A stretch of DNA of 64,000 nt from an uncultured Alphaproteobacteria bacterium (GTDB lineage Bacteria; Pseudomonadota; Alphaproteobacteria; UBA11222). A program made the translations under genes and the position numbers. This document shows positions 36,306 through 49,718 of the stretch, piece after piece. Under the pieces are notes generated by a model. It saw only the letters and a list, made by a program, of their open reading frames with translations, did not search any database and was not told the DNA's origin. Positions within the stretch are counted from its first letter, which is position 1, and every line of letters begins with the position of its first letter. The stretch lies in contig CAMYID010000008.1 of assembly GCA_947258435.1 (NCBI GenBank), forward strand, positions 1 to 64,000, written 5' to 3'.

Positions 36306-37145
36306 TCAGCCCTGGAACAGGGTCAGGATCTGCTGCGGCCGGGAATTGGCGATCTGCAAAGCCTGGGTGCTCAATTGCTGCTGAATCTGGGTGGCCTGCA
36401 GGCGTGCGCTTTCGCGCCCGAGATCCGCATCAACCAACGTTCCGATGCCAACCGTCAGGGAATCCTGCAAGGTCTGCACAAAATTGCTGTGTGTACTCAA
36501 ACGCAGCGAGTTGCCGCCAAGGGTTGCCAGCGCACTGGTCACATTCTGCAACATCGTATTGAGCGCGGCGACCTCTGTCTGTGCGTTTGCGAGACTGGTT
36601 ACATCACCGAATACCGCAGTAGTGGCAGCCTTCACATCGATGGCAGCAACCGCAATCGCCTTGGTCGGGTCAGCGTCAGGCTCCGACAGCACATTGAGAT
36701 TATCCGTCGCAGGCACCGGCGGGCTTTTGTCGATCAGGTTAAAGCCATCAAATGTCGCCGCATCGATAATTGTCGCGACCTGAGATGCAAAAGCCTGATA
36801 GTCCGCATCGATCAACGCACGGCTGGCATTGTCGAGCGACGGGTCGGCGGCCTGCACAGCCTTTGCCTTCATTTCGATGACCAGATTGGAAATTGTTTCC
36901 ATCGCCGCAATAGAAACATCAAGGATGTTGATGCCGCGCTGCACGCTTTGCGCCACCGCGCTGTAAGCATCAAGGTCGGCACGCTGCTTCTGGGCAACCG
37001 CAAAGGTGCCCGCATCATCTTTCGCATTGCGAACCTTAAGACCGGTCGCGACCCGGTCCTGAATTTCATCGAGATCGCGGTTCGCTGCATTGAGCTGCTG
37101 CAGGGCGACAAGCGCGGATGTATTGGTTTTGATTGAAACAACCAT
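36306..37145 (-). CDS. Flagellin (copy 1)
   Basis: Filament subunit of 279 residues, the short alphaproteobacterial type. The conserved N-terminal coiled region (VSIKTNTSALVALQQLNAAN, DRVATGLKVRNAKDDAGTFA) and the C-terminal one (QTLQDSLTVGIGTLVDADLG, then QQQLSTQALQIANSRPQQIL) are complete. The variable centre (about 150-195) is short. It is secreted through the flagellar type III system. Start 37145 has GGAGAAACCG before it, and a sigma-54 promoter lies 63 bp upstream. It is about 39% the size of a large flagellin and about equal to the second copy at 41,293. Confidence 0.95.
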   Translation of the reverse strand: MVVSIKTNTSALVALQQLNAANRDLDEIQDRVATGLKVRNAKDDAGTFAVAQKQRADLDAYSAVAQSVQRGINILDVSIAAMETISNLVIEMKAKAVQAADPSLDNASRALIDADYQAFASQVATIIDAATFDGFNLIDKSPPVPATDNLNVLSEPDADPTKAIAVAAIDVKAATTAVFGDVTSLANAQTEVAALNTMLQNVTSALATLGGNSLRLSTHSNFVQTLQDSLTVGIGTLVDADLGRESARLQATQIQQQLSTQALQIANSRPQQILTLFQG

Positions 37146-37497
37146 CGGTTTCTCCTGGCTAGAGCATCACGCCATATTCGGGCATCTGGTCAATTGCTCC
37201 CCATAAAGCAATTAGCATGCCAACCGGAGAATAAGGTTCAATCCATTGATTTCACGCAGTTATTTTTATTTTCATGCCGGCAGTAACAGAAATTGAGGCA
37301 GTTTTTGCCAAGTCGGGGAAATCTGTACCGTGCAGAAGCTGCCGCCTGTCGTGGCAAGATGCGAACACTGTTCGTCTGCCCGGTTCGGTGCGGATCACCT
37401 CCGAGAATGGGAACCCCCCTCCCCATTGGACTGGGGGGCGGCAAGCGGTGGCATGTCGCGGAACAGGATAGGCGCGCCTTTGGGACGGCAGGGAAAT
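37146..37497. other. Flagellin leader and intergenic region
   Basis: There is no gene in these 352 bp. They hold the sigma-54 promoter of flagellin copy 1 and, further upstream, two inverted repeats of unknown role: CGAACA-C-TGTTCG (37362-37374) and a CCCCCC/GGGGGG hairpin (37414-37438). The region also follows the 3' end of flaG. Confidence 0.6.
37208..37222 (-). promoter_or_regulatory. Sigma-54 promoter of flagellin copy 1
   Basis: On the minus strand TTGGCATGCTAATTGCTTT carries GG (-25/-24) and GC (-13/-12) exactly 12 bp apart, matching TGGCAY-N5-TTGC. Transcription would start near 37197, giving a leader of about 52 nt. The same motif precedes the second flagellin gene. Confidence 0.88.
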
Positions 37498-40099: not shown

Positions 40100-40516
40100 A
40101 TGCCCCTGAAACTGTCACTAAAGCCGGGTGAAAAATTCGCAATCAACGGGGCGGTCATCGTCAACAGCGATCGACGCAGCACACTGGTGGTCCAGAACAA
40201 GGCGTCGATCCTGCGTGAACGCGACATCATGCAGCAGGAAGAAGTCAACAGCCCTGCGCGGCGCATCTACTTCCCGATCATGATGATGTATCTCGATGAT
40301 GCCGGACATGCGCGGTACTATGATGAATTCTCTGCACGGATGAGTGAATTCATGGAGGCTGTCAGCACGCCCGAGATTCTGAAGCTCTGCGTTGAAATCA
40401 GCAAGGATGTAATTAACGGTCAGTTCTACGCCGCCCTGCGTTCATGTCGGCAGCTGATTGAATTTGAGACGGAGTTACTGGGCGATGAGCCTGCAAGCTT
40501 ATCAGCGCACGCTTAA
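40100..40516 (+). CDS. flbT: Flagellin synthesis regulator FlbT
   Basis: A 138-residue FlbT. It begins MPLKLSLKPGEKFAINGAVI, with VVQNKASILRERDIM and PARRIYFPIMMMYLD, all family hallmarks. In Caulobacter FlbT binds the flagellin mRNA leader and promotes its decay until the hook is complete. Here it is encoded next to flaF, whose start lies inside flbT, and close to both flagellin genes. It is likely to act on the leader of the flagellin gene at 41,293 and perhaps on that of copy 1. Confidence 0.95.
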   Translation: MPLKLSLKPGEKFAINGAVIVNSDRRSTLVVQNKASILRERDIMQQEEVNSPARRIYFPIMMMYLDDAGHARYYDEFSARMSEFMEAVSTPEILKLCVEISKDVINGQFYAALRSCRQLIEFETELLGDEPASLSAHA

Positions 40517-40844
40517 TACCACCGAAGATCCGCGTAACACCGAGTATCGCCTGTTTGCCGAAATCACACGCCAGATGATGGCAGCGGGGCAGAACGGCAC
40601 GCGCGATGCTGCGCTGGTTGAAGCGGTCGACCGCAATCGCCGCCTGTGGATTGCGCTGGCAACCGATTGCGCCGATGACAATAATCGCCTGCCACCCGAA
40701 ACCCGCGCGGCGATCATTTCCCTCAGTATCTGGGTGCAGAAATATTCACGCGAGGTTACCCGTGGCGGGGAAGACCTCGAGGCGCTCATCGATGTAAACC
40801 GCACAATCATGAAGGGGCTGCAGCCCGGCGGCGGCACAGCCTGA
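40485..40844 (+). CDS. flaF: Flagellar biosynthesis regulator FlaF
   Basis: A 119-residue FlaF: SLQAYQRTLNTTEDPRNTEY, then LFAEITRQMMAA and the RLWIALATDCADDNNRLPPE helix. FlaF is needed for flagellin synthesis or secretion and works against FlbT. The ATG at 40485 overlaps the end of flbT by 32 bp and has GGAG 9 nt upstream, so the two genes are translationally coupled. Confidence 0.94.
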   Translation: MSLQAYQRTLNTTEDPRNTEYRLFAEITRQMMAAGQNGTRDAALVEAVDRNRRLWIALATDCADDNNRLPPETRAAIISLSIWVQKYSREVTRGGEDLEALIDVNRTIMKGLQPGGGTA

Positions 40845-41027: not shown

Positions 41028-41089
41028 CGGCAAGATCTGCCGGGCAATAATTGCCCCTTCCGGCAGGATTTGCCCGGCAGATCTTGCCG
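41028..41089. promoter_or_regulatory. Symmetric array of four YGGCA-N5-TGCCR palindromes (putative sigma-54 enhancer)
   Basis: Four copies of the form (C/G)GGCA-N5-TGCC(G/C) lie at 41028-41042, 41042-41056, 41061-41075 and 41075-41089. Copies 1-2 and 3-4 each share one base and are 14 bp apart. The outer 20 bp on each side (41028-41047 and 41070-41089) are exact reverse complements. The array ends 132 bp upstream of the -12 element, where an activator of sigma-54 would bind. It could also fold as a long hairpin in RNA. Confidence 0.7.
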
Positions 41090-41207
41090 TTTATAATTAA
41101 TTTAGGATATTTATTTCCATATTTACGGTTAACTTAGATTAACCAACTCAATATTTGCCTAGTATATGGAATAACTTGCCCATTAGAACGTTTTTGCCGG
41201 GCAAATT

Positions 41208-41222
41208 TGGCATAGCAATTGC
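41208..41222 (+). promoter_or_regulatory. Sigma-54 promoter of flagellin copy 2
   Basis: TTGGCATAGCAATTGC has GG at 41209-41210 and GC at 41221-41222, 12 bp apart, as required for -24/-12 recognition. Transcription should start near 41234, about 59 nt before the ATG. A perfect TTGCC-G-GGCAA dyad (41194-41204) touches its upstream side. Confidence 0.9.
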
Positions 41223-41292
41223 GACATGTGGCGCGGTCCGAAATGGGCCGTGGCGCATAAGGCGCCGTTAAAATCCAGAACGGAGAATTACT

Positions 41293-42120
41293 ATGCCTAC
41301 AACTATTCATACAAATCCGGGCGCACTCGTCGCCCAGGCCACGCTGCGTAACGTGACCAGTGCACTGGACAGCGTTTCAAAGCAGGTACAGACAGGTTTT
41401 CGTGTCGCCGATGCGCGGGATGATGCGTCGACATTCGCGGTGGCCCAGGGCCTGCGTGCCGACGTGCAATCCTTTGGCGCGGTGCAGCAAGGCCTGAATG
41501 GTGCGGTTGGTCTTGCCGAAGTCGGCCTGGCCGGTGCGACCGCAGTGTCAGATCTGTTTCAGGACATCCAGTCCAAACTGACACAGCTGGCGGATTCCTC
41601 AATCTCGACGGAACAGCGCTCGACCTACAATGCCGACTTGCAGGATCTTGCAAACCAGGCGAAAGACCTGATTTCGCAAGCCAACTTCAACGGCACCAAT
41701 CTGCTCGACAACACAACGGCCGTGAACTTCATCGCCGATGTGAATGGCGGTACGATCAGCGTGACCGGTGTCGATGTGTTCACGACGGCTTCGGTATTCG
41801 CGGCATCCGCCGGCGCGTTGACCGACGCACAGGCACGTCAGTTCCTCAACAGCAGCTCGAACACGCTCGACAACTTCGTGACTGCGACCAATAACGCGCT
41901 CAGCGGCATTTCCGCGGATCTGCGTGCGGTGGAATCGCAAAACAACTTCGTTGCCGCGATTTCCGATGCGACCGAAAAAGGTATCGGCGCGCTGGTCGAT
42001 GCGGATCTGGCGAAAGCAAGCAGCAAGTTGCAGGCCCTGCAGGCCCAGCAGCAGCTGTCGACCCAGGCGATCACGATTGCCAATCAGGCACCGTCGGTGC
42101 TTCTGGGGCTGTTCCGGTAA
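41293..42120 (+). CDS. Flagellin (copy 2)
   Basis: Filament subunit of 275 residues. N-terminal TTIHTNPGALVAQATLRNVT and VQTGFRVADARDDASTFAVA, C-terminal EKGIGALVDADLAKASSKLQ and QQQLSTQAITIANQAPSVLL. It shares its ends with copy 1 but the middle differs (Asn/Thr/Ser-rich, with possible O-glycosylation targets). Start has CGGAGAA 5 nt upstream. A sigma-54 promoter lies upstream, a strong terminator downstream, so it is a monocistronic late flagellar gene. Confidence 0.95.
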   Translation: MPTTIHTNPGALVAQATLRNVTSALDSVSKQVQTGFRVADARDDASTFAVAQGLRADVQSFGAVQQGLNGAVGLAEVGLAGATAVSDLFQDIQSKLTQLADSSISTEQRSTYNADLQDLANQAKDLISQANFNGTNLLDNTTAVNFIADVNGGTISVTGVDVFTTASVFAASAGALTDAQARQFLNSSSNTLDNFVTATNNALSGISADLRAVESQNNFVAAISDATEKGIGALVDADLAKASSKLQALQAQQQLSTQAITIANQAPSVLLGLFR

Positions 42121-43432: not shown

Positions 43433-45067
43433 CTATTCCGCACCCCCCAGATCAAGTCCCGCAAGCGCCGCCGCATATGCGCGCCAGCGCCCGACCGCAC
43501 GGCTATTGATTTCTTGCCCTTGCTGCAGGCTGCTTGCGGTGACAGGGGCATAATCGGCTGCGGGCCGCGCCAGCAACCCGTCATGCCATTCAAGGTTCAG
43601 GTGAGCGAAAATCGCTTTCGCTCCGGCCTCGGGCGCGGCAACCAGATCCTCATAGCAGATATCGAAAACCCGAAGCGGCAATACCTGCCGCCAGTGCGCC
43701 ATCAGCCTGCGATAGCCACGATAGAAGCATGCGATATCCGCAAGGCGATAACTCCAGCTCAGATTGCCCGTGAAATTCTGCGTATAACAGGACCAGACCA
43801 CATCGTGGGGATCACGCATGCAATGCAAAATCACGGCATCTGGAAATAGCCGCGCGATCAGGCCGAGATGCAGAAAGTTAAGCGGCATCTTATCGCTGAC
43901 CCATGCTGCATCGGCATCGATTTGCGACAGACGCGCGAGATAACGCGCCGCCAATGCCCTGCGGCGCTTTTCAGGCATTGCCGCCAACGCAGCGGGGTAC
44001 CCGCCGGCCTGCTCCGCAACAAGCGCCATTTCAGCCAACTCGCCCCCGCCCGTGACCGCCGCATGACGGGCAAGCAGCCCCTCGACCAAAGTCGTGCCCG
44101 ACCGGGGCATACCGAGGATGAAAAGCGGCCGCCGGCCCGGTGGTGCATCCCGGTTGACCGGTTGCTGTCGGAAATGATCGGCCGGACTTGCCGCGATGAT
44201 CGCATCAATTTGCGCCCTGAACGCCGCGGAGCTGAACGTCTGACCACGGGCTTTCGCAGCTTCGGCACCATAGCGGTTGAATGCATCGAAATGCTGCCGC
44301 GCCTGCGCAAATTCACCGGCCGCGTCAGCCTGCATCGCCAACACATGATGAATCTGCCCGCGCGCAGCCGGTGACAATGCCCGGTCATCGGCACGCGCGC
44401 CAAACCGTGTAATCAGCGCTTCAGGCACCCGAATGCCCGCCTTGATCGCTTGCCCCAACCCGTAAAACGCCTTGATATGTGCCGGATCGCACTCTAACGC
44501 CGCAGTATATGCGGCAACCGCGGCCACCGCATCGCCGGCCGCCGCCTCAATATTGCCGCGCGCATAAAGTAGCGCGGCTGAATTGGGGGCCATCGCCTGC
44601 GCCGCCTGCAATACTGCCCGCGCCTGGGACATGCGGCCTGCATTCTTCAGAGCATTGGCAAGATTAAGCTGAAACCCCGCTGAAGCGGGCGCGGCGGCAA
44701 CCGCGCGCTCAAAGGCCTCAAGTGCCGGGCCGACCTCCCCCAAAGCCTGATAGGCCAGCCCAAGCCCGTTGTGAATGCCCGCATCCTGCGCGCCCCGGGA
44801 GAGCGCCTTATCAAAGGCCCGGATCGCCGCGCGGTTCTCCCCGGCCTGAAGCCGCGCGAGCCCCAGCTCGGCAAAGACCGCACCCCCCTCACCCCCCGAA
44901 TCCTGACGCACCGCCTTTTCAAGCAACCGCACCGCGCGCGCGAAATCACGCGACGCCATTGCCCCGCCGGCCTGTCTGCGCAGACTGTTCGCCCGGCCCT
45001 TCTTTCCCGCCAGGCCCTCCGTATTTCGGGCGCGCCCCACTGGCTTATCTGAGCTGATTTTTCCCAT
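43433..45067 (-). CDS. TPR protein with sulfotransferase domain
   Basis: A 544-residue protein. TPR repeats occupy about residues 30-255 (RAVRLLEKAVRQDSGGEGG, AIRAFDKALSRGAQDAGIH). A PAPS-dependent sulfotransferase domain follows with the 5'-phosphosulfate loop LFILGMPRSGTTLVEGLLAR, and the 3'-phosphate region VILHCMRDPHDVVWSCYTQ. TPR-sulfotransferases are common in marine alphaproteobacteria; the acceptor is unknown. The ATG at 45067 is preferred; a start at 45115 is possible. The recombinase of the adjacent mobile element reads into its first codons. Confidence 0.86.
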   Translation of the reverse strand: MGKISSDKPVGRARNTEGLAGKKGRANSLRRQAGGAMASRDFARAVRLLEKAVRQDSGGEGGAVFAELGLARLQAGENRAAIRAFDKALSRGAQDAGIHNGLGLAYQALGEVGPALEAFERAVAAAPASAGFQLNLANALKNAGRMSQARAVLQAAQAMAPNSAALLYARGNIEAAAGDAVAAVAAYTAALECDPAHIKAFYGLGQAIKAGIRVPEALITRFGARADDRALSPAARGQIHHVLAMQADAAGEFAQARQHFDAFNRYGAEAAKARGQTFSSAAFRAQIDAIIAASPADHFRQQPVNRDAPPGRRPLFILGMPRSGTTLVEGLLARHAAVTGGGELAEMALVAEQAGGYPAALAAMPEKRRRALAARYLARLSQIDADAAWVSDKMPLNFLHLGLIARLFPDAVILHCMRDPHDVVWSCYTQNFTGNLSWSYRLADIACFYRGYRRLMAHWRQVLPLRVFDICYEDLVAAPEAGAKAIFAHLNLEWHDGLLARPAADYAPVTASSLQQGQEINSRAVGRWRAYAAALAGLDLGGAE

Positions 45068-46790
45068 CCCCGCAGCATAGGGGCGCAGCGTGGGGACGCA
45101 ACTGTTCACAACCACTTGTCAACGGCATTTCATTTGAGTAGGTTCCGCCCCTGACTTGAGCGGTTCCGGCATTTCGCCTGCACCGCCCAACACGGCGCCG
45201 GTAGCTCAGCTGGATAGAGCACCAGACTACGAATCTGGGGGTCGGGAGTTCGAATCTTCCCCGGCGCGCCATCTCCATTTCACCCCTGCAAATATCCCCT
45301 AACGCCTTGAACGGTAAGGATATTTCTGGTGTTCGAAACCCCGAATTTCGGCAATACGCCAGTTGGTCCTTGAACGCGAGTTTGAGGACCGTTTGACGGT
45401 GCTCAATCCTTCCCTTTTTCCAAAGATTCCAAGGGTTTGACAAGAACGTCATCGAGTGTTCGAAAGTCTCCTCGTAGGTCTGCAACGGCTTGCCGCAATT
45501 TTTGATCCTCTCACGGAGGACCATGCGCTCCATTTCCAAATTGCCGATGCGCTTCTCGTAAGCTTTGATGACAGATTCGCTGTCTGTTTCGACCAGCCGA
45601 TCCATCAGTTGTTCAATTTTCCGGTCGATCTGGGACAGCTCAGCTTTCATCGACTGCCCCTGCGCTTTCATGGTCAGGGCACGCTGATCCCAGAGATCGC
45701 GGAACAGTGCCGAAGCCCGTTCGAATAACTCTGGTGTGGGACGCAGTGATTGCAGCAGCGCCTCGAATTCCTCCTCTACCACCTCGCGACGGATCGATTT
45801 GCCTTTCGCCGCGCAATCTTTCTGGCGGCACAAATAGTAGGGATAATGCGCCGCCTTGCCCTTTGACCAGTTGGCGGTCAGAGGATTGCCGCAGCAGCCG
45901 CAGAGGACGAAGCCCCGCAACGGGAAATCTTCGTTGATGTCCTTACGTGCCGGAACGCGCGCTTTGCCATTCAGGCGGTCCTGGATCGTCTTGAAAGTCT
46001 CAAGGCTGATCAGACCTTCATGCTGGCCGGGCCGCAACGAAACATCCCACTTCGGCAGTTCAAGATAGCCTGCGTAGAGTGGTTGCGTCAGAAAATCATT
46101 CACGCGTTGGTTCGTCACTTCGCCGCGCGGTGTTTTCGGAAATTCAGGTTGAGATTCGAGAAAGCGCTTCACTTCAGCCTGCGTTGAGAAACGCCCGCTG
46201 GCATACCCTTCGAGCGCTTCTTTCATGATCGAGGCCAACGGCTCATCACGACGAAGAACTTTCCCTTGTCCTGACGCACGCTCGTAACGGTAGCCGACAG
46301 GCGCATGAAAGACCCAATAGCCATTCATCGCGCGGGCTCGCATCCGGTTCTTGGTCTGCTCGGCGTTCTTCTCGCGCTGGTGCTGCGCGAATGTCGCCAT
46401 CATGTTTTCGACCATGCGGGAGTCCGCATCGTCCTTGAATTCCATACTCGGGCTGATGAGCTTCCCGCCTGCCTCGCGCAGAAGGTCTCTCAGGTCGAGA
46501 TGACCGCGCAGGTCGCGTGCGAAGCGGCTGATATCGTCAATGATCACCATCCGCTCGTCGTTGCGGTGCGCCTTGAGGTGCTTCAACATCGCCAACATGC
46601 CGGGTCGGTCGTTGCGTCCCCCGGTCATATCGTCACGGAAGACCTCGACCACCTCAAAGCCCCTGAACGCAGCAAACTCCCGGCAGCGTGTTTCCTGGGA
46701 AGCAAGGCCGGTTCCACGGATCGTTTGCTTTACGTCCGATACACGGCAGTAAATGACAGCTTTATTGTTGTTTCCTTCGTTTTCTTTCAT
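45045..46790 (-). CDS. Large serine recombinase (integrase) reading out through tRNA-Arg
   Basis: Site-specific integrase/excisase. The resolvase domain holds the catalytic serine S18 in YCRVSD, with SRFARD and GKLISPSMEF. The Recombinase domain (about 165-300) is followed by a zinc ribbon (LCGCCGNPLTANWSKGK through CRQKDC) and a coiled-coil (about 360-440). Residues 507-581 (ARRGRFELPTPRF onward) are the antisense of tRNA-Arg and its upstream DNA, so the present C-terminus is host-derived. The ATG at 46790 has AAGGA before it; a GTG at 46802 would overlap the small gene upstream. Confidence 0.93.
   Translation of the reverse strand: MKENEGNNNKAVIYCRVSDVKQTIRGTGLASQETRCREFAAFRGFEVVEVFRDDMTGGRNDRPGMLAMLKHLKAHRNDERMVIIDDISRFARDLRGHLDLRDLLREAGGKLISPSMEFKDDADSRMVENMMATFAQHQREKNAEQTKNRMRARAMNGYWVFHAPVGYRYERASGQGKVLRRDEPLASIMKEALEGYASGRFSTQAEVKRFLESQPEFPKTPRGEVTNQRVNDFLTQPLYAGYLELPKWDVSLRPGQHEGLISLETFKTIQDRLNGKARVPARKDINEDFPLRGFVLCGCCGNPLTANWSKGKAAHYPYYLCRQKDCAAKGKSIRREVVEEEFEALLQSLRPTPELFERASALFRDLWDQRALTMKAQGQSMKAELSQIDRKIEQLMDRLVETDSESVIKAYEKRIGNLEMERMVLRERIKNCGKPLQTYEETFEHSMTFLSNPWNLWKKGRIEHRQTVLKLAFKDQLAYCRNSGFRTPEISLPFKALGDICRGEMEMARRGRFELPTPRFVVWCSIQLSYRRRVGRCRRNAGTAQVRGGTYSNEMPLTSGCEQLRPHAAPLCCGDGKNQLR
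45195..45271 (+). tRNA. tRNA-Arg (anticodon ACG), integration target
   Basis: A 77-nt tRNA: acceptor GCGCCGG/CCGGCGC, discriminator G, encoded CCA, T-loop TTCGAAT, and anticodon loop CTACGAA with anticodon ACG. It reads CGN arginine codons after A34 deamination. Its 3' end is the left junction of the mobile element: the serine recombinase gene abuts and reads through it on the other strand. Confidence 0.96.
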
Positions 46791-46798
46791 CGAATCCT

Positions 46799-47059
46799 TC
46801 ACCTTTCCGCAGGCGGGGCCGCAGTCTCTTCTTCGTCACATTGTTTTGCTTTTGTTCCTATCCTAGCATAGTGCGCCGTCGCTGAAAGTGATTTGTGTGT
46901 CGTCTTTTGCCTCGCAAGCTGAGCTGGATGGACTCCCCAAGCGGCATCGATGAACGCTGACATGATCGCTGATAACCTGTGGATAAGGTCATCGGCTTGC
47001 TCGTCGGTATAGCCGAGCGCTTTGAAGGATTGCCGATGTTTTTTTACTATCTCTTTCAT
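46799..47059 (-). CDS. Small protein of unknown function, upstream of the recombinase
   Basis: An 86-residue, helix-rich protein (KKHRQSFKALGYTDEQADDL, LSAIMSAFIDAAWGVHPAQL) that ends 8 bp before the recombinase start. It is not recognised. Its position suggests an excisionase/recombination-directionality role or a regulator, as in other serine-integrase elements, but no HTH is obvious. The ATG at 47059 has GGAG 8 nt upstream; a TTG at 47086 would add nine residues. Confidence 0.62.
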   Translation of the reverse strand: MKEIVKKHRQSFKALGYTDEQADDLIHRLSAIMSAFIDAAWGVHPAQLARQKTTHKSLSATAHYARIGTKAKQCDEEETAAPPAER

Positions 47060-48110: not shown

Positions 48111-49718
48111 TTAGGAGGGTCGATAGCCCTCGACATAAGACCAGGTGCCGGAGGTATATTGCGGGTACTGTGCAAAATGCTGCGGCACGGTTTGCGTGAC
48201 GATCCTCGCACGGCGTTGCCCCCATCTTGAGGGGATAGGCACGGAATCGTGCGGCGGATGGAACGGATTGGGCAGGAAGCGGCCCGCGAAATCCCCGCGC
48301 GTGTAATAGGGATGCTTTTCGGCGAAGACGGGCTTCAGGTTCTTTCCTGAGATAAAGAGGATTTGGCGGTCCTCGGGCATCGACAGCACCTCTTCAGGCA
48401 TCATCAAGGCACGGGCCTGTTTGGTCCGGTTGGTTTCGGCGAAGGCGTGGTATTTCATATCGGCATAGGCCGAGAACGGATCGCTTCCGTTCATGATTCC
48501 CAGTGCAGCATTGAGCTTCTGGCGTCGTGCATCGGCCTGACGCAGGCCGTCATCATATTCGAGCGTTTCGGTGCCAAGCATCGAAGAGACCATCTGCGCG
48601 GTTTGGTAGTCACGGACACCGAAGAACTGGCGCAATGCGGCGGACCCCATAAAACCCTGCAATGCCGGAGCGCCGAAGTTGCGCACGATCTGTCCGACAT
48701 CCTGAAACAGTGCCCAGGTCCGTAAACCCGCACCACGTCCGAAGGTGAAGGCGCGCAACAGCGCCTCGAAATTGCCGAGCTGTCCGGCCTCATCGATGAT
48801 CATGTTCACAGGCGGCGCGGATGGCGCGCGCGACTTATAGAGCATCTGCACCGTGAACATGGTGCGTAAGATTGGCGACCACAGCCCGACATACTCAATC
48901 GGCACATTGATCGCCCAGCTCGTTGCTTGGTGCGCATCGCAGGTGTCGGCAAGCGACGCATCGGCGTTATCGAGCGAGGCCAGCAACATCGGGTCATCGA
49001 GAAAGTTCAGATGGGCGTATAGCTCACCGATGATCGAGCCGAATTCTTTCTCGCTCTCCTGCTGCTTGGCCAGCATCTCGCCAGCGGTTCGGCGAACGCT
49101 GTCCATAGAGGAACCCAACATGCATTCGAGGCAGTCGGCCCAGCGTTGCGTATCGGATTCAATCCAGTTGATGACGCGATAGAGCGAAGGGAAGCTGACG
49201 CGCCCTGTCGTCTCGACCAGCATCTTGATGATGTTTTCAACCCACTCGCGCGCCCGCAGCTCGAAATACCGCCCGTTGGATGCGCCGCTCGCCGGGATCA
49301 GGCTTTCGGCGATGAACTTGCAGTCCGCATGGAAGTGCGGGTCATTCAGTTTGAGAATATCGAGCGGGTTCATCCGGTGTTGCGGCAGGCCACGCATGCC
49401 TGTCGGGTTCCAGCAATAAAGGTAGCTACGCTCAAATGCGAAATTGACCATCGTGACCGAAGCGATTTCGCCACGCGGGTCGAGGATGAAGTTGCGCCTG
49501 CCCGCATTGCGCGCGACGGCGAGCGCGAGCAGGTCGCGCATCTTGCCCGAGCCTGCACCGGCGATAGTGATGATCGGCGCATCGGTTTCGAGGCAGAGCG
49601 GCTTGTTTGAGGCGTATCCGATTTGCAACCCGCGCCCGTTCATCAGGCCCGCGCGCTTGAGATCATGCTCGTTCGCCCAGGATGCCGATCCGAAACGGTA
49701 TTCCTCATTGTCATACAT
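48111..49718 (-). CDS. TraG/VirD4-like type IV coupling protein
   Basis: A 535-residue conjugation ATPase candidate that would link a relaxosome to a type IV secretion channel. The nucleotide-binding region is IAGAGSGKMRDLLALA (52-67): K59 is kept but the residue after it is M, not Ser/Thr, and the first loop Gly is Ala. The DPRGE motif and Walker B VNMIIDEAGQLGNFEALL are present, as is RTWALFQDVGQ. No N-terminal transmembrane segment is seen, unlike classic VirD4, so it may rely on the small membrane proteins encoded upstream. ACAGGAG lies 9 nt before the ATG. No relaxase is in the window. Confidence 0.88.
   Translation of the reverse strand: MYDNEEYRFGSASWANEHDLKRAGLMNGRGLQIGYASNKPLCLETDAPIITIAGAGSGKMRDLLALAVARNAGRRNFILDPRGEIASVTMVNFAFERSYLYCWNPTGMRGLPQHRMNPLDILKLNDPHFHADCKFIAESLIPASGASNGRYFELRAREWVENIIKMLVETTGRVSFPSLYRVINWIESDTQRWADCLECMLGSSMDSVRRTAGEMLAKQQESEKEFGSIIGELYAHLNFLDDPMLLASLDNADASLADTCDAHQATSWAINVPIEYVGLWSPILRTMFTVQMLYKSRAPSAPPVNMIIDEAGQLGNFEALLRAFTFGRGAGLRTWALFQDVGQIVRNFGAPALQGFMGSAALRQFFGVRDYQTAQMVSSMLGTETLEYDDGLRQADARRQKLNAALGIMNGSDPFSAYADMKYHAFAETNRTKQARALMMPEEVLSMPEDRQILFISGKNLKPVFAEKHPYYTRGDFAGRFLPNPFHPPHDSVPIPSRWGQRRARIVTQTVPQHFAQYPQYTSGTWSYVEGYRPS

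Follow-up and report, generated by a model that had tools for sequence, protein, structure and literature searches.

The 62-bp array of inverted repeats upstream of the flagellin gene (positions 41028 to 41089 of the window, i.e., the whole 64,000-nucleotide stretch analyzed here) very probably constitutes an enhancer, i.e., an upstream activating sequence at which FlbD, the activator of late flagellar genes, would bind, as judged by sequence comparison. A scan of the window located four dyads with the core GGCA-N5-TGCC in this array, at 41029 to 41041 (unit 1, GGCAAGATCTGCC), 41043 to 41055 (unit 2, GGCAATAATTGCC), 41062 to 41074 (unit 3, GGCAGGATTTGCC), and 41076 to 41088 (unit 4, GGCAGATCTTGCC). 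Their start-to-start steps are 14, 19, and 14 bp, in agreement with the two 14-bp pairs set 19 bp apart that the preliminary description of this DNA had listed. A distance of 33 bp, roughly three helical turns, separates unit 1 from unit 3 and unit 2 from unit 4; an alternative reading of the array is therefore that of two interleaved pairs with a three-turn spacing. The preliminary description had regarded the entire 62 bp as a mirror. This holds for the arms (41028 to 41047 and 41070 to 41089; 20 nt each), which are 100% complementary, while the central 22 nt show only partial complementarity.

The clustering of the dyads far exceeds chance. The window contains seven GGCA-N5-TGCC dyads compared to 2.6 expected, a number attained by 1 of 100 shuffles, and random placement of the 179 dyads of the genome would yield approximately 1.5e-6 clusters with four dyads within 60 bp. 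The genome-wide count is high in itself (179 compared to 49 for the reversed control motif), as would be expected if the array were a dispersed palindromic (REP-like) repeat without a role in flagellin control. However, dyad pairs with a gap of 1 to 30 bp were found at only six places in the 2.88-Mb genome (reversed control, 0); three of these are within the array, and the other three are looser. In addition, the 14-bp double dyad described below is present in just one or two copies in each of the 24 genomes (out of 385 of the class) that carry it, mostly at flagellar promoters. The REP-like repeat, for which many array copies scattered over the genome were sought and not observed, was rejected, and we consider it the least credible of the explanations weighed here.

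The array is located between flaF (40488 to 40844, plus strand, with the stop at 40844) and a flagellin gene (41293 to 42120, plus strand; Flagellin_N and Flagellin_C), with flbT, which encodes a posttranscriptional flagellin regulator (40100 to 40516, plus strand), farther upstream; all three were assigned by domain matches. Pattern matching identified a sigma-54 promoter element, TGGCATAGCAATTGC, at 41208 to 41222 (plus strand), the -24 and -12 parts of which are kept in relatives. The array thus precedes a late flagellar gene and its sigma-54 promoter, the position characteristic of ftr-type enhancers. From its end, the distance to the -24 TGGC is 119 bp and that to the -12 TTGC is 130 bp, and the 132 bp to the -12 element given earlier has to be corrected accordingly. 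Two further dyads reported at 41194 to 41204, just 5′ of the -24 element, turned out to be one everted half-site pair (TGCC-N1-GGCA; TTGCCGGGCAA), which is not of the array type and whose GGCA part is conserved in relatives. A second flagellin gene in the window (36306 to 37145, minus strand; domain match) is preceded by the sigma-54 element TGGCATGCTAATTGC (37208 to 37222, minus strand; pattern match), and the motif scan detected a single exact dyad, GGCAAAAACTGCC (37297 to 37309, minus strand), 74 bp upstream of this element.

Between the array and the promoter, a TTAA-N6-TTAA sequence (41129 to 41142) was invariant across the four aligned loci; it might represent a site of the CtrA or IHF type. 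The flagellin 5′ leaders of the family (window positions 41226 to 41291 and the eight loci L158, L159, L161 to L164, L166, and L167) have a GCAAAATGC-type hairpin in common, together with a UCCAGAA-N-GGA hairpin at the ribosome-binding site. Two-sided changes were found at four of the eight predicted pairs in these nine sequences, and the leader hairpins are candidate targets of the neighboring FlbT. Genes for a serine-recombinase-like large protein (45045 to 46802, minus strand) and a TraG/VirD4-like protein (48111 to 49718, minus strand), both assigned by eye, point to a mobile element that may have integrated immediately downstream of the flagellar region.

To place the motif in a wider context, flagellin upstream regions were collected across the class. 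From 79 FlbT-centered loci and 11 fetched stretches, 130 regions of 350 bp were obtained, and 122 were kept after removal of those with a common 60-mer. GGCA-N5-TGCC occurred 77 times in 57 of these nonredundant regions (shuffles, 1.6; reversed motif, 1), and the exact motif was absent from the remaining 65. Enrichment was restricted to the 5-bp gap, with at most nine sites for any other gap length. A sigma-54-like element was detected in 93 regions, 47 of which contained an exact dyad, compared to 10 of the 29 regions without such an element. Where the element was present, nearly all sites were positioned 68 to 160 bp upstream of it; the four units of the window array are at -173, -159, -140, and -126. 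Spacings between sites peaked at 13 to 14, 18 to 20, and 33 to 35 bp, which together accounted for 56 of the 99 pairs within 60 bp, although many regions stem from related Maricaulis and the counts represent nonindependent events. The spacings of the array coincide with these peaks. No flagellin region contained more than three exact sites, and four exact sites were found nowhere but in the array in the samples scanned. The preliminary description had considered both a FlbD-type activator and a repressor reading inverted repeats; because the dyads associate with sigma-54 promoters, an activator is favored over a pure repressor.

The genome search proposed in the preliminary description proved informative, as exact dyads were found at the second and third flagellin genes and at flgF, and one-mismatch dyads were found at fliK/flgK. 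The third flagellin (contig C22) is 90% identical to that of the window; one exact and one one-mismatch dyad are located upstream, and its promoter is, by eye, one base off TGGC-N7-TTGC. The fliL/flgF gap on C23 contains the exact dyad GGCAAAATCTGCC, plus TGGCACGCAAACTGC directed at flgF, and the fliK/flgK gap on C4 (genes named by eye) contains two one-mismatch dyads 20 bp apart. Among the 36 sigma-54-like sites found in the genome, 30 were read, and just three of these had exact dyads on their 5′ side, namely, those of two flagellins and of a small-protein locus. The combined dyad and sigma-54 pattern reaches 110 bp and missed the array because the gap to its promoter is 119 bp.

The small-protein locus (L045:9693-10030; C13 from 59693 onward in the same genome; orthologs in L211, L204, and L218) encodes a protein of 69 to 73 residues without a Pfam match, adjoining an alpha/beta hydrolase, and has a sigma-54 element with an upstream dyad. 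This arrangement is also present in G001, G005, and the distant genome of L095, and the locus is possibly a new FlbD target. A dyad and a sigma-54 element were likewise observed upstream of a gene for a 288-amino-acid protein without a Pfam match (LNPLQHIPVVSSLYRRLTGDEI) in three family genomes (L208:1667-2530, on C9 of the same genome; L209; L205). Elsewhere in the window genome, at G000:C24:77813-77848 (L006), the palindrome GGCACGACGTGCC occurs twice in identical form, with a start-to-start distance of 23 bp.

Eight further genomes (Maricaulis maris, M. alexandrii, M. parjimensis, M. salignorans, Brevundimonas albigilva, B. mediterranea, and two metagenome-assembled genomes) were searched with the combined pattern, which gave 18 rows at 17 places compared to two for the reversed control. 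Twelve places were flagellar: ten flagellin genes (recognized by eye from the N-terminal sequence), one FlgF-type gene, and one fliK (Pfam). The remaining five comprised one small protein beside an alpha/beta hydrolase, three places in long open frames, and one unclear case. Within the family of the window genome, the pattern was found at 10 places in six genomes (control, 1), including two flagellin-2 orthologs, three places at a conserved uncharacterized gene (288 amino acids in the window genome), three instances of the small-protein locus, and two apparently spurious places. According to the preliminary description, the proposal would be refuted if the motif were missing near other flagellar genes and in close relatives, yet the motif is present at the flagellin, flgF, and fliK promoters of relatives.

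Alignment with three loci of the same family (L080, L081, and L082) showed that units 2, 3, and 4 match conserved half-sites at spacings of 19 and 14 bp, whereas unit 1 had no counterpart in this alignment and falls beside a gap. The positions of the sites are kept in these relatives, and their sequences are degenerate. The same-genus genome G001 was outside the alignment, as its flbT contig (L079; 5,694 bp) stops short of the array point. Folded as single-stranded DNA, the array region reached -29.9 kcal/mol compared to -9.9 ± 2.0 kcal/mol for shuffles (z = -10). A fold of this stability would also suit arms that act as a hairpin, a cruciform, or the intrinsic terminator of the flbT-flaF operon instead of as protein sites, and a terminator-like match is in fact present at 41061 to 41089, followed by TTTATAATTA (one found, compared to 0.8 expected in shuffles). 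However, this tail lacks a real T run, the long hairpin is missing in three family relatives (-12.3 to -17.0 kcal/mol; L158:1775-1850, placed partly beyond the sites, was excluded), which nevertheless retain the site positions, and half-sites recur at other promoters that lack the palindrome. Since neither unit 1 nor the long hairpin is conserved in the family, the terminator or cruciform is disfavored; it was rejected and can be regarded as very improbable. With site positions kept while the sites themselves are degenerate and the hairpins weak, it is the row of sites that is conserved. The extended palindrome appears to be a lineage-specific sharpening of this row, which plausibly arose by inverted duplication of a two-site module.

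A likely ligand of the array is encoded in the same genome. The FlbD gene is located on contig C4, adjoining a MotA/ExbB-type gene, and its product contains Sigma54_activat and HTH_8 domains and a receiver-like N terminus, the receiver match being below the Pfam gathering score; FliX is encoded on C23 (profile match above the cutoff). The presence of both genes, together with the motif at other flagellar sigma-54 promoters, supports the earlier proposal of FlbD-type activator sites on comparative grounds. An FlbD ortholog scoring over 370 bits is present in 35 of 60 relatives. Of 30 orthologs fetched, 27 were read, and 24 of these have an identical recognition region of 20 residues. Binding of the dyads by another dimeric regulator (NtrC, NtrX, or a dedicated repressor), with FlbD acting elsewhere or being inactive, was considered as well, given that two of the only three strong sigma-54 activator genes of the genome are not FlbD. 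In addition, no FlbD was found in some genomes that carry the double dyad: it was detected at an E value of ≤1e-100 in 16 of the 23 such genomes besides the window genome (13 of the 17 with the flgF/fliL location), and even a looser cutoff retrieved no ortholog in four of the 17 flgF/fliL genomes and one of the two flagellin genomes. These five assemblies are all fragmented (80 to 480 contigs), and two of the four flgF assemblies are rated 95 to 100% complete. Moreover, motif presence did not discriminate between genomes with and without FlbD (7 of 24 compared to 1 of 4) when 30 of the 60 sampled relatives were considered (28 loci scored; two dropped for lack of an N-terminal hit). On the other hand, the motif tracks flagellar sigma-54 promoters, the few exact dyads among the sigma-54-like sites read in the genome (3 of 30) include those of two flagellins, and the recognition region of FlbD hardly varies within the class. 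Another regulator is thus unlikely, and FlbD remains the preferred ligand.

A search of 385 genomes of the class recovered the 14-bp double dyad (GGCAN5TGCC-N-GGCAN5TGCC) in 24, and the reversed control matched in one. Two places were present in the window genome and in G108, and they are adjacent only in the former. We read 23 loci outside the window genome, leaving out the second place of G108; 17 were in the divergent flgF/fliL gap, two before flagellin genes, and four elsewhere. At 16 of the 17 flgF/fliL loci, a TGGCAY...GC element pointed towards flgF, 42 to 84 bp beyond the module, while a sigma-54 element towards fliL was seen at none of the 17 by a strict pattern and at five by a looser one. 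From its composition and the recurrence of the double dyad, the array thus consists of two mirrored copies of this module. It is conceivable, if rather doubtful, that the double dyad is a class-wide site for cooperative FlbD loading at flgF/fliL and that its mirrored duplicate here loads FlbD in two interleaved three-turn frames. If so, the flagellin promoter would be unusually strong or switch-like, and the 14/19/33-bp geometry would set its response.

In the mechanism we propose, one FlbD dimer would bind each dyad through its Fis-type helix-turn-helix, and FlbD on the array would loop to the sigma-54 RNA polymerase at 41208 to 41222. When FliX signals completion of the basal body, FlbD would hydrolyze ATP and thereby open the flagellin promoter, and four sites may give stronger or steeper activation than one or two. 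The resulting sequence rule, i.e., GGCA-N5-TGCC at spacings of 14, 18 to 20, or 33 to 35 bp upstream of a TGGCAY...TGC element, flags late flagellar promoters and candidate new targets across Alphaproteobacteria. With natural promoters containing one, two, three, or four sites, the effect of site number and spacing on enhancer output becomes testable.

Enhancers of the NtrC type, for which glnA is the model, combine an activator with a Fis-type helix-turn-helix, dyads with a short fixed center, pairs about three helical turns apart, and a sigma-54 promoter. The array resembles them in the Fis-type helix-turn-helix of its proposed activator, in its dyads with a short fixed center, and in its pairs about three turns apart 5′ of a sigma-54 promoter, but it differs in having GGCA/TGCC half-sites rather than those of NtrC and in being located at flagellar genes instead of nitrogen genes. 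Descriptions of FlbD, of FliX, of ftr sites, or of control by sigma-54 are found in PMC3096577, PMC3930126, PMC7064773, PMC6180460, PMC12421884, and PMC4287350, the passages of which that we drew on contain no printed ftr consensus. In Caulobacter, FlbD activates sigma-54 flagellar genes via ftr sites and is controlled by FliX (PMC3930126, PMC3096577). As far as these two sources were used, the system described here is similar in its sites 5′ of the sigma-54 promoters of flagellin, hook, and rod genes, in possessing FlbD and FliX genes with flbT and flaF beside flagellin, and in the sites at the divergent fliK/flgK gap (PMC3930126, PMC3096577). The likeness to footprinted ftr sites is one of gene context and promoter type. 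Unlike the other sampled regions, which have at most three dyads, the array contains four exact dyads, arranged as a mirror image. Four sites in a symmetric row are unusual, but switches of this kind are already known.
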